The notes below the pieces were generated by a model. It did not search any database. It had not been told where the DNA came from and saw only the letters and a program-made list of their open reading frames with translations. A stretch of DNA of 64,000 nt from an uncultured Pseudomonadota bacterium. GTDB lineage: Bacteria > Myxococcota_A > UBA796 > GCA-2862545. Below are positions 10,782 through 14,427 of this stretch, in pieces; the stretch's first letter is position 1, and each line of letters starts with the position of its first letter. The stretch covers positions 62,001 to 126,000 of the forward strand of contig CAJXTB010000009.1 in the NCBI GenBank assembly GCA_913061235.1, given 5' to 3'. Position numbers and translations under genes: made by a program.

Positions 10782-11075
10782 CTAGCTCTCGACGAGGAAC
10801 ACCGTGTAGTTGTTGCTCGACTCAACTCGGTCACCCTTGATCGCGCCGTACTCTGGGTCGTCCGACCAGCCTTTGAACGCGTCCATCGTTGGGAAGCGGA
10901 TGCACACGTTGGCCATCTTCGCCTGGCCTTCAACGTAGGTCGCGGGTCCTGCAAAGATGAACTCGCCGCCGTGCTTGGCAACCGTGCTGCCTACAACGGA
11001 GAGGTTGCCTGGGTTGTACTTGGCGTATCGCTCGGGGTCAGTGATGTCGTAGGTAAATACAGCATGTACAGGCAT
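10782..11075 (-). CDS. DUF1330-family protein
   Basis: A 97-residue protein of ferredoxin-like dimeric alpha/beta-barrel type. The sequence MPVHAVFTYDITDPERYAKY...GGEFIFAGPATYVEGQ...VCIRFPTMDAFKGWSDDPEY matches the DUF1330 pattern (opening beta strand, the D-P-x-x-Y-x-x-Y segment and the FPSxxxAxxWxxxPEY-like segment). The family has no established reaction. It lies 211 bp downstream of doxX on the same strand and could be read with the sulfur cluster, but the gap suggests its own promoter. Confidence 0.8.
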   Translation of the reverse strand: MPVHAVFTYDITDPERYAKYNPGNLSVVGSTVAKHGGEFIFAGPATYVEGQAKMANVCIRFPTMDAFKGWSDDPEYGAIKGDRVESSNNYTVFLVES

Positions 11076-11286
11076 GTTGGCATCTCACTTTGAGGGGGAT
11101 GTGTAGACTACCCGCGGCACCCTCAAAAGCGACAGCGGGGTTCCAAAGGACCGGCCAGATACCGGGTCTTTCGCACCCATGAAGGTCGCCCCAGTCCAGA
11201 TGCGCGGCCGCAGCCGAAACGCTGGTGAAAGACCATCCCGTCACCCCCGACGGGTGTGGCAACTCGCGCAAGTTCCGACCACACCG

Positions 11287-11718
11287 CTACAGCTTCGCGA
11301 GCCAACCACGCGTACGCACCGCGTACCGACCCGGTCCCATCAATGCCGCAGCAATCGCACCGAACGAGTAGAAGACCTGCAATTCAAGCGCGTACTCGCC
11401 ATGGTCACCCACGGAGAGCAGGTCGCCGGCGTGCAGTAAGTAGGTCGCCATTGCCATGGTGAACACAATCGCCAGAGCACTGCTGCGCATGGCCACGCCC
11501 AAGATGAGCAGGATGGGCGCGACGATTTCGCCGACGTAGACGCCGTAGGCCATCGCGGCTGGAAAGCCCTTGCCCTCCAGCATTCCGCCCATCCAGCCAA
11601 CGCCATTCATGATTTTGTCGACGCCGTGAAACAGCATCAAGCCGCCCACTGTCACACGAAGCACAAGGCTGGCGAGGTCTGGGCGGGGCCGGGGGGGTGT
11701 CGGACTGAATCGGCTCAT
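11287..11718 (-). CDS. DoxX-family membrane protein
   Basis: A 143-residue protein with about four TM helices. The first helix carries LRVTVGGLMLFHGVDKI, the R-x-x-x-x-x-x-F-x-x-H-G-x-x-K pattern of DoxX proteins, and the middle GVYVGEIVAPILLILG matches the second conserved helix. The DoxX/DoxD family includes subunits of thiosulfate:quinone oxidoreductase and redox membrane complexes. The ATG at 11718 has GGAGG five bases upstream. It lies 55 bp after the DsrE-like gene on the same strand, so it is plausibly the last gene of the sulfur cluster; a role in quinone-linked sulfur oxidation is inference. Confidence 0.85.
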   Translation of the reverse strand: MSRFSPTPPRPRPDLASLVLRVTVGGLMLFHGVDKIMNGVGWMGGMLEGKGFPAAMAYGVYVGEIVAPILLILGVAMRSSALAIVFTMAMATYLLHAGDLLSVGDHGEYALELQVFYSFGAIAAALMGPGRYAVRTRGWLAKL

Positions 11719-11773
11719 GGAGGCCTCCGTTGCCGAACACCTCACCTAGACCAAAGCCAGCGGCAACGATGGG

Positions 11774-12286
11774 TCAGACGAAGATGATGTCTGCACCCAC
11801 CGTTTTCTCGAAGAAATCGGTGGCGGTGATGATGTCCTGCACCTCGGGCAGCAGGTCTGCTGCCGTTCGGTCAAACATCTTCATGGCCAGCTCACACGCG
11901 TACAGATCGCAGCCAGACTCGCTGAGCATCGTGACCATCTCCCGAGCGCGCGGCAGGTTGAGCTCGTCCATCTTCTTTTGCATGAACGAAGTCCCAAGGG
12001 CCTCCATTCCCGGCAACCCAGCGACCATATTTGGCATAGGGCTCATGGGATTTCCTACGAAGTTCACGTGCAGGTGGTCCACGCGGCTGTCAGTGATGAC
12101 CTCCAGGCCGTAGAACGTGAAGAAGATGCTGCATTCAATGCCGGTCATACGTGCAGCATTGGCCATAATGAGCACCGGAAAGCACTCGTCTAGGCCTCCT
12201 TTTGCACAGATGAGCGCAATCTTGCGGGCACCGGTGGTTGCGGCAGGCTGGGCTGCGGGAGCATTTGCGTTGAAGGGAAAAGACAT
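11774..12286 (-). CDS. DsrE/DsrF-like sulfur-carrier protein
   Basis: A 170-residue protein of the DsrE2-like subgroup. After a low-complexity N-terminus (about 20 residues) it has KIALICAKGGLDECFPVLIMANAARMTGIECSIFFTFYGL, the opening strand-helix-strand of the DsrE fold. Cysteines at LICAKGG, DECFPV, IECSIF, SGCDLYACE are candidate persulfide carriers; the SGCDLYAC segment is in the position of the active-site cysteine. A ribosome site AGGAGA precedes the ATG, overlapping the stop of the upstream gene region (9-bp gap). With SQR and TusE-like partners it probably relays sulfane sulfur in the cytoplasm. Confidence 0.85.
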   Translation of the reverse strand: MSFPFNANAPAAQPAATTGARKIALICAKGGLDECFPVLIMANAARMTGIECSIFFTFYGLEVITDSRVDHLHVNFVGNPMSPMPNMVAGLPGMEALGTSFMQKKMDELNLPRAREMVTMLSESGCDLYACELAMKMFDRTAADLLPEVQDIITATDFFEKTVGADIIFV

Positions 12287-12295
12287 GGGGGTCTC

Positions 12296-13201
12296 CTAGA
12301 CACAACCAACAGGTTTCGGGATGCCAGCAATCATGGCGACAGACTTGCCAGGCGTGTTCGGGAACAGGGCGTACATGCGCTTGGTGCCCACACCTGAGCC
12401 GGTTGCGACACGTCGGACATTCGGGCTGGCGTTGCAGGTCAAGCAGTCTTGCCGCGCCCACATCACAACGCCCCAGTGCTCTTCAGTCAGCTCAATACCC
12501 AGTCCCGCGGCCATCTTTTCACCCAGTTCGGGCGTCCAATCAGCCGCGTCGACCAGAAAACCGGTGGCGGTGAATCGATGCCCCTCCCACATCACCACGT
12601 CGGACAAGTCGGGAGCCTCAACCGCTGCGCGCGGCTCGCACTGGGCAGGTGCAGGCTTACGAGTTGATGACGACTGGCGAACCGATGACGACTGGCGAGT
12701 CGGTGCAGGCTTGCGCTCTGAACCCGACGACGCCGCACTTCGGGCCCGTCCCAGGTGGCGGAGAATCTCAAGGCCCACCGCGAGACCACGCTGAACTTCT
12801 TTGTCGTTGACCGCCCCCATCATTCCGAGTGGCCCGACCGGCTTGACCTCGTCTGCATGGTGCAGGACATCTGTGGCATCGTTGGCGAACGCGAGGACGT
12901 CGGGCTGGGTGACGTTGCGTAGGGTGTCCAAGATCTGAACCGCACTGTCCGACAGCGAGCGAACGTCTTCTGGGCCGTAGGCGTTGGCGACGCGGTCGAA
13001 CAGAGACAGCATCTCGTTGCCCAGGTCAAACCAACCGCGACTCTCCCACTCGGCCATCTGGCCAGCGAGTGCGGTCATGCCCTCGCGGGCAACGGGCGTC
13101 ATGTCGCGGATGAAGTCTTCGGTGTAGCGCTGACGTTCGACGATGTAGTCGAGCTTCGCATGCAGGGCGTCTAGGTGTTGGTTGAGTTCGGCGTCCATCA
13201 A
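12296..13201 (-). CDS. DUF1641-TusE/DsrC fusion protein
   Basis: A 301-residue two-domain protein. Residues about 1-150 are helical and match DUF1641 (DVRSLSDSAVQILDTLRNVTQPDVL...PVGPLGMMGAVNDKEVQRGL), a domain known next to SQR-like and formate-dehydrogenase-like flavoproteins. Residues about 150-200 are a Ser/Arg/Pro linker. Residues about 200-301 match TusE/DsrC (GHRFTATGFLVDAADWTPEL, LTEEHWGVVMWARQDC, ending IAGIPKPVGCV) with the invariant penultimate cysteine; the second DsrC cysteine ten residues earlier is absent, so it is TusE-like in that respect. Two more cysteines occur in DCLTCN. Its start overlaps the SQR stop by 4 bp, implying translational coupling. It probably accepts sulfane sulfur from the neighbouring DsrE-like protein. 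Confidence 0.85.
   Translation of the reverse strand: MMDAELNQHLDALHAKLDYIVERQRYTEDFIRDMTPVAREGMTALAGQMAEWESRGWFDLGNEMLSLFDRVANAYGPEDVRSLSDSAVQILDTLRNVTQPDVLAFANDATDVLHHADEVKPVGPLGMMGAVNDKEVQRGLAVGLEILRHLGRARSAASSGSERKPAPTRQSSSVRQSSSTRKPAPAQCEPRAAVEAPDLSDVVMWEGHRFTATGFLVDAADWTPELGEKMAAGLGIELTEEHWGVVMWARQDCLTCNASPNVRRVATGSGVGTKRMYALFPNTPGKSVAMIAGIPKPVGCV
12666..12698 (-). repeat. Short direct repeat in fusion linker
   Basis: Two identical 15-bp words (GATGACGACTGGCGA, 12666-12680 and 12684-12698) at an 18-bp period sit in the linker of the DUF1641-TusE fusion and encode an S-S-S-x-R-Q/K pattern. This is consistent with replication slippage in a flexible hinge. Confidence 0.75.
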
Positions 13202-14427
13202 GAAGTCCTCTTTCCGTACATCAGCATGTTGTGATCCAAAGGAAGTTCGTCACCTTTCACGAGCACATTCCAATACGCCCACTCAAAGGCCAGCTTGCCC
13301 AGGTGGTTGATGCGGCTCTCTTCCAACAAGTAGAAGGGCCCAATGCCAGGAAGCGGAAAGCGGCCTGGAAGCGGCTCGGTCTCGTAGTTGAAGTCAATGA
13401 GCATGGCCTTGCCATGACCGGTCTCGATGAAGCAGTTCGCGTGGCCATCGAATGCGGGCAGAAGCGGTCGCCCCTCGATGAAACGCAGCACGTTCGCAGG
13501 CAAAATATCGCCCTGGAAGTGAGCAACTGCGCCGGCTTTGGACGTTGGCAGGTCCGTCGCATCGCCAATGACGAAGATGTGGTCGTACTTGACGCTCTGA
13601 AGCGTGTGCTTGTCTGTCGGCACGAACCCAAGCTCATCACCTAGACCACACGCCTTGATGGGGTCTGCTCCACCATGGAGCGGCACCGTGACCAACAGGT
13701 CGAAGTTGAGCTCTCGACCGTCGTACGAACGCAAGACCTTCTTGTCCTCGACCACCGCTTCCGTGAGGAAGTTGACCACCTGCGCGATGCCTCGCTTCTC
13801 CAGCATGCCGCCGAGCGACGCCGAGGCGACGGGCTTCGTGAACGCTCCATCCAGCGGGGTGACGTAGATGAGCTCGGTCTTGTCGCGCAGTCCACGCTTG
13901 GTCAGCCAAGCATCAACCAAGAACGTGAACTCCAGGGGCGCCACCGGGCACTTGATGGGCATGTCCATGATGTTGACCACCAGGCGTCCACCGTCCCAAC
14001 TGTCCAGGCGTGCAGCGAGCGCTTCAGCACCGGCCGGCGAGTAGAACTCGTGAACGTCGGTTCTCCAGAGCTTGCCGGTCATGCCTGGCGTCCACTCTGG
14101 GTGCAGTTCGGCGCCGGTCGCAATCACCAATACATCCCAGGAGAGCGTAGTGCCGTCCTCAAGAACCGCCGACTTTGCCTCGGGGTCGAGCTTGGCGAGA
14201 GTGCCAATGACTCGGTTGACCTGTGCGCTCACCAAGTTCATGCGGGGACGAACCAAGTCGGAGACGCGCTTGTCACCAAAGGGAACGAAGAGAAGCCCAG
14301 GTTGGTAGATGTGCTCGTCGTCGCGGTCGACCACGGTGACGCGCCAGCCGTCCGGCAAGGCTCGGACCATCTTGTTGGCCATGAGCGAACCCGCGGTGCC
14401 GCCGCCGAGTATCAACAGTTGCTTCAT
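13198..14427 (-). CDS. Sulfide:quinone oxidoreductase-like flavoprotein
   Basis: A 409-residue FAD protein beginning MKQLLILGGGTAGSLMANKM (Rossmann GxGxxG/A variant), with VLVIATGAELHPEW and the second FAD contact HIFVIGDATDLPTSKAGAVAH. Cysteines at MPIKCPVAPLEF, IKACGLGD and HANCFIETGHGK sit where SQR-type enzymes carry their redox-active pair. Members oxidise sulfide to zero-valent sulfur and reduce quinone at the membrane surface; the C-terminal helix (GKLAFEWAYWNVLVKG) fits membrane attachment. It leads the cluster SQR, DUF1641-TusE, DsrE, DoxX, with GGGAGG before the ATG. A different sulfur or metabolite substrate remains possible because this subgroup is less studied. Confidence 0.85.
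   Translation of the reverse strand: MKQLLILGGGTAGSLMANKMVRALPDGWRVTVVDRDDEHIYQPGLLFVPFGDKRVSDLVRPRMNLVSAQVNRVIGTLAKLDPEAKSAVLEDGTTLSWDVLVIATGAELHPEWTPGMTGKLWRTDVHEFYSPAGAEALAARLDSWDGGRLVVNIMDMPIKCPVAPLEFTFLVDAWLTKRGLRDKTELIYVTPLDGAFTKPVASASLGGMLEKRGIAQVVNFLTEAVVEDKKVLRSYDGRELNFDLLVTVPLHGGADPIKACGLGDELGFVPTDKHTLQSVKYDHIFVIGDATDLPTSKAGAVAHFQGDILPANVLRFIEGRPLLPAFDGHANCFIETGHGKAMLIDFNYETEPLPGRFPLPGIGPFYLLEESRINHLGKLAFEWAYWNVLVKGDELPLDHNMLMYGKRTS

Follow-up and report, generated by a model that had tools for sequence, protein, structure and literature searches.

The 64,000-nucleotide stretch studied here, called the window, comes from an uncultured bacterium of the lineage Myxococcota_A (contig CAJXTB010000009.1, positions 62,001 to 126,000). 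Its minus strand carries a row of genes headed by a sulfide:quinone oxidoreductase (SQR), which is followed by a single protein joining a DUF1641 domain to a TusE/DsrC-type sulfur carrier. Transcription runs from SQR through the DUF1641-DsrC fusion, a DsrE2-like protein and DoxX to a DUF1330 protein. A preliminary description of this DNA had given the row as SQR, fusion, DsrE-like carrier and DoxX. We observed the same order, but DoxX lies outside the conserved unit. The DUF1330 gene was not named in that description, which used its position 10782 as a start. The features are as follows.

13198..14427, minus strand: type III SQR, 409 amino acids; NF049943, best Protein Data Bank (PDB) match human SQOR
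13948-13950 and 13432-13434, minus strand: candidate catalytic-pair cysteines of SQR, C160 and C332, respectively
12296..13201, minus strand: DUF1641-TusE/DsrC fusion, PF07849 and PF04358 in one open reading frame (ORF); 301 amino acids from TTG 13201, or 300 from the likelier ATG 13198
12728..13198, minus strand: DUF1641 domain, fusion residues 2-158, modelled as entirely helical; AlphaFold2, ForE1 profile match
12608..12727, minus strand: Ser/Pro/Ala-rich linker, fusion residues about 159-198, predicted to be largely disordered; AlphaFold2 confidence score (pLDDT)
12299..12595, minus strand: TusE-type DsrC domain, fusion residues 203-301; PF04358, structure matches
12302-12304, minus strand: penultimate C300 of the fusion
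11774..12286, minus strand: DsrE2-like sulfurtransferase, 170 amino acids, conserved C131; PF13686
11287..11745, minus strand: DoxX membrane protein, co-directional; PF07681, 60.6 bits
10782..11075, minus strand: DUF1330 protein, local neighbour; PF07045

The SQR and its fused partner

SQR: The protein matches NF049943 over the full length of the profile (1-406 of 406; 579.2 bits, cut-off 525), and its best relative of solved structure in a PDB search is human SQOR (E 1e-43). It belongs to the type III family, and sulfide:quinone activity is predicted. The catalytic cysteines of type III SQRs have been placed near positions 159 and 331-339 (PMC13047784, PMC10989961). C160 and C332 coincide with these positions and are invariant in 81/81 relatives, which gives the candidate cysteines of the preliminary description their identity. 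One of the two patterns used for the scan includes C160, whose invariance is therefore in part a product of that selection; C332 alone is free of it. NF049943 describes a selenoprotein subtype of type III SQR with selenocysteine in an HxxU motif (PMC13188914). The window SQR exceeds the cut-off of this family but reads GHANC332, with a Cys codon where the subtype has selenocysteine. Hence, it is the Cys form and not a selenoprotein.

Junction: SQR and fusion meet at TGATG, and the same junction occurs in five relatives (L003, L004, L005, L009, and L014). Because it recurs, ATG 13198 is the likelier start of the fusion, and the overlap is more probably 1 bp than the 4 bp proposed previously from TTG 13201.

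Fusion: Both domains exceed their cut-offs in one ORF, PF07849 (DUF1641) with 48.7 bits (cut-off 21, residues 116-152) and PF04358 (DsrC) with 81.7 bits (cut-off 24.9, residues 210-301). As the arrangement also recurs across related genera, the fusion is real. A mismatch of the C-terminal part with DsrC/TusE profiles had been named as grounds against it; this part exceeds the cut-offs of both PF04358 and TIGR03342 (TusE/DsrC; 66.7 bits, cut-off 53.5). In the AlphaFold2 model, the DUF1641 half is helical, the linker is poorly ordered with the lowest pLDDT at residues 161-180, and the DsrC half has pLDDT values of mostly 94-98 with a loose C-terminus. The linker differs in length and sequence among fused homologues. 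A fold search with the model returned DsrC/TusE structures, mostly at Z 13-15; matches of the DsrC half filled the list, in which no fold relative of the DUF1641 half appeared. An extra CxxC (DCLTCN; C253 and C256; window 12434-12445) lies in the DsrC half of the window protein and occurs in 0/12 aligned fused homologues.

Carrier cysteine: The penultimate TusE cysteine noticed earlier is present as C300 and kept in 77/77 relatives. The second C-terminal cysteine (CysB) occurs in none of the 77, which have Ala, Ser or Thr there; in the window, it is Ala, 11 residues ahead of C300. Organisms without DsrAB are reported to show such a single-Cys pattern (PMC3397948). The two C-terminal cysteines and DsrAB that define a dissimilatory DsrC are thus not found here, as the fusion has Ala and a search of the genome yielded no dsrA. 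The search for a sulfur sink in this genome covered dsrA and TusA. TusA (PF01206) gave no match, with matches in 11 of 14 control genomes, and the genome therefore does not show the TusA of an E. coli-type Tus relay. The fusion is its only DsrC-family protein.

The carrier might be biosynthetic, passing sulfide-derived sulfur to tRNA thiolation or a similar use, as E. coli TusE does, and not a part of energy metabolism or detoxification. Its single-Cys TusE type, the missing dsrA and the lone DsrC-family protein fit such a role. However, the E. coli relay is incomplete when no TusA is found (MnmA was not searched for), and the carrier always accompanies SQR in the studied set, which was itself found through SQR. 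We give a biosynthetic role very little credence.

DsrE2-like protein: The third gene matches PF13686 (103.7 bits) but misses the equivalog cut-off of NF047629, the DsrE2 sulfur carrier (93.3 bits versus 210). Hence, we call it DsrE2-like only. Its C131 is invariant in 73/73 relatives.

The wider operon and its fused forms

An alignment scan for SQR, with one genome per species, gave at least 591 confirmed relatives. The best 80 were read; these are the nearest ones and not a census, and the following counts refer to them. Wherever the contig left room, DsrC came directly after SQR or after DUF1641 (77/77), and DsrE2 then followed DsrC in all 76 testable relatives. The exceptions to this order were contig ends. 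Of the 77 operons, 42 had DUF1641 as a separate gene, 10 had it fused to DsrC, and 24 lacked it; the remaining one had an SQR-DsrC fusion. The operon occurs in more than a dozen phyla, including Actinomycetota, Bacteroidota, Acidobacteriota, Verrucomicrobiota, Calditrichota, Chloroflexota, Deinococcota, Gemmatimonadota, and others, and is present in common heterotrophs such as Nocardioides. The Nocardioides operon is one of those lacking DUF1641, whereas a Kineosporia-type strain has DUF1641 as a gene of its own. The fusion is a local variant of this widespread operon and joins two proteins that elsewhere each sit in the same SQR operon. The preliminary description had suggested that sulfide oxidation may be tied to a carrier relay. 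This tie is well founded because SQR, DsrC, and DsrE2 stay together as a unit whose cysteines do not vary, and because the recurrent fusion adjoins SQR.

No fifth gene family stands regularly beside the four. Neither a DoxX homologue nor the DUF1330 protein was found at the loci of the 80 relatives, and DoxX was rejected as a relay component as it is not conserved. Regulators lie upstream at some loci. By eye, the flanks of L057, L089, L102, and others show DUF302-like proteins, thioredoxins, and CsoR-like and MerR-/Crp-like regulators at low frequency. Their recurrence suggests that the operon may be controlled by sulfide or persulfide. We also considered a C-terminal membrane anchor that replaces DUF1641 on SQRs without it. 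This is not supported, as their tails, although slightly longer (median 6 residues beyond the profile versus 2.5 and 0), are short and polar.

Homologues of the fusion were searched in 63 genomes of the window's order and 71 of its class. Both halves were in one frame in at least 14 genomes of the class, the window's included, and 10 named contigs also carry a single-ORF fusion; almost all of these contigs bear the label Myxococcota, Deltaproteobacteria or unclassified proteobacteria. The fusion is thus not confined to this assembly, and its recurrence in many genomes rules out an assembly artefact. The co-occurrence with SQR proposed as a check by PF07849 and PF04358 searches was found wherever the locus was read, as SQR adjoins the fusion there. 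Two genomes differ: in G025, DUF1641 and DsrC are separate genes, and in G054, the frames of the two halves differ and overlap, possibly through a frameshift. Among the matches listed for a plasmid collection, there was plain TusE only, none covering 80% of the query, and hence no fusion.

A tree built from 93 SQR rows places all 22 rows with a fusion in one supported clade, which needs at most three changes; the DUF1641-DsrC fusion may have a single origin. A second type of fusion, in G039 and G041, joins DsrC to the C-terminus of SQR at loci that showed no DUF1641. The SQR-DsrC fusions at L017:157-1695, L018:1498-3039, and L072:721-2262 have a shortened DsrC ending in GCI or GCL and no DUF1641 at the locus. 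Their rows form one Myxococcota clade nested in the fused clade.

The DUF1641-DsrC fusion could be a near-neutral joining of adjacent genes through loss of a stop codon, with each half functioning just as the separate protein does and nothing gained by the fusion. A possible single origin, the long, variable and disordered linker, and separate genes in dozens of lineages are in keeping with this. It seems quite unlikely to us, as the fusion is kept in many genera although the homologues are only 35-64% identical, and as the fused clade also gave rise to a fusion of another kind, SQR-DsrC.

DUF1641 as a candidate coupling subunit

A profile search with the fusion found ForE1 (8rqz) at E 1.1e-10. 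With DUF1641 alone, ForE1 was found at E 7.2e-08, YjlC at 0.004, and an NDH-2 membrane coupling protein at 0.009. ForE1 is the quinone-coupling subunit of a Bacillus formate dehydrogenase, which depends on it for binding menaquinone and for formate:menadione activity (PMC8808070). By PF07849 and its homology to ForE1, the DUF1641 half belongs with the ForE-like proteins, and quinone or membrane coupling is predicted for it. As in B. subtilis ForCE (ForE1/YjgD; PMC8808070), a homologous DUF1641 subunit is encoded beside the catalytic subunit. In ForCE, however, the partner is a molybdenum/tungsten formate dehydrogenase and not SQR, and no sulfur carrier is attached. A further parallel is B. subtilis NDH-2 (YjlD), a distant flavoprotein relative of SQR, with its helical partner YjlC for coupling to the membrane (9snk, 9pxk). 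NDH-2 oxidizes NADH and not sulfide, and the homology is marginal, as YjlC matches the DUF1641 profile weakly (E 0.004-0.1).

DUF1641 also has other neighbours. Parageobacillus carries a DUF1641 gene in the vicinity of a Huc-type hydrogenase (PMC12976888), and in Ignicoccus, one lies beside a flavin adenine dinucleotide (FAD)-containing pyridine-nucleotide-disulphide oxidoreductase (PMC3149612). In the window's genome, a formate dehydrogenase alpha subunit (L116:918-4303, contig C14; TIGR01591 over cut-off) and a small DUF1641-like ORF just below the Pfam cut-off overlap each other, an arrangement that resembles Bacillus ForCE. No oxidoreductase was recognised within a few kb of a third DUF1641 match in this genome (L115:4778-5851, contig C11; 25 bits, over cut-off). 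In another genome (G001, locus L025), DUF1641 is directly upstream of a distant SQR that is 29.5% identical and below the NF049943 cut-off. No DsrC was seen nearby, and G001 carries the full fused operon elsewhere.

These data bear on the role first suggested for DUF1641, namely that it docks the acceptor onto the flavoprotein. In its strict form, DUF1641 would above all hold DsrC on SQR and have no part in quinone coupling. Such a role agrees with DUF1641 genes sitting between SQR and DsrC and with the fusion of DUF1641 to DsrC. But docking of DsrC cannot generally depend on DUF1641, which 24 of the 77 SQR-DsrC-DsrE2 operons lack, and one clade joins SQR and DsrC directly. Moreover, DUF1641 is homologous to ForE1, and it also accompanies formate dehydrogenase and SQR-like flavoproteins that have no adjacent DsrC, as at L025 and in Ignicoccus. 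We therefore consider the docking role unlikely. The ForE1 homology and the DUF1641 neighbours (formate dehydrogenase, Huc, and the Ignicoccus oxidoreductase) favour a coupling role at the flavoprotein: DUF1641 more likely links SQR to the membrane and quinone than docks DsrC. Tethering of DsrC near SQR may be a consequence of the fusion.

A proposed two-exit adaptor for sulfide oxidation

What the analysis shows is the family memberships, the conserved operon and cysteines, the homology of DUF1641 to ForE1, and how the fusion is distributed. From them, we lean, with somewhat better than even confidence, towards a cytoplasmic sulfide-oxidation and sulfur-relay unit in which the fusion would act as a two-exit adaptor. 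Type III SQR would oxidize sulfide via FAD and the C160/C332 pair. The ForE1-like DUF1641 half would tie this flavoprotein to the membrane quinone pool and serve as the electron exit. The TusE-type half, at the end of a flexible arm, would accept sulfane sulfur as a persulfide on C300 and serve as the sulfur exit. This sulfur would then be exchanged with C131 of the DsrE2-like protein, as the next or the previous carrier. The fusion would thus place both exits on one adaptor held by the flexible linker. Physical binding to SQR, coupling to quinone, and the order and direction SQR to C300 to C131 are what we infer. The proximity of SQR and DsrC is argued independently by the natural SQR-DsrC fusion at three Myxococcota loci.

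Several points weigh against the two-exit adaptor. HucM, a stalk whose hydrophobic interior is a quinone conduit to the membrane (PMC10017518), is not significant in the DUF1641 profile search (E 0.98). Designed helical proteins reach scores in the range of YjlC, so that the YjlC link is marginal and ForE1 is the sole firm relative of DUF1641. The operons without an adjacent DUF1641 mean that it is not universally needed. In a model of a natural SQR-DsrC fusion, the SQR part is good, but the DsrC block has a low pLDDT of about 27-75; hence, the model does not show whether DsrC docks on SQR. In Allochromatium, transfer of sulfur from DsrE to the penultimate Cys of DsrC was shown, and not back (PMC3397948), a direction that would reverse the proposed order. 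Finally, neither of the sulfur sinks looked for in the window's genome, dsrA and TusA, was found.

Known relays show in which respects the unit differs. Allochromatium DsrEFH-DsrC and E. coli TusBCD-TusE also use a Cys of the DsrE family and the penultimate Cys of DsrC as transfer pair, but their carriers are separate and, in PMC3397948, not encoded with SQR. Here, DsrC is of the single-Cys type and fused, and a lone DsrE2 replaces the heterohexamer. Methylacidiphilum fumariolicum SolV has an operon of type III SQR, a TusA-like protein, and DsrE2 that is up about 1.7-fold under sulfide (PMC10205796). As in the window, a small sulfur carrier and DsrE2 come after a type III SQR, but the carrier there is TusA-like and not TusE/DsrC, and no DUF1641 or fusion is reported. 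Every domain family of the window's unit is already known. The open-access DUF1641 literature that we searched (subscription papers and preprints lie outside this search) describes neither the fusion nor the operon.

For many sulfide oxidizers, it is an open question how SQR-bound sulfur is released and how a flavoprotein that is not transmembrane gains access to the quinone pool. The natural fusions, DUF1641-DsrC and separately SQR-DsrC, directly nominate partners of SQR, and the DUF1641 homology carries the idea of ForE-type coupling over from formate to sulfide. As the operon occurs in Nocardioides, it is testable in cultured strains. The data also suggest that TusE/DsrC genes behind SQR should not be taken as markers of dissimilatory sulfur metabolism or tRNA thiolation. 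Tentatively, and at just under an even chance, we see in the widespread, as yet unnamed operon a dedicated sulfide-oxidation module in which both SQR products would leave via protein partners, with the exits fused in Myxococcota. If the two-exit reading is true, the fusion protein alone may carry off both products of the SQR encoded next to it.

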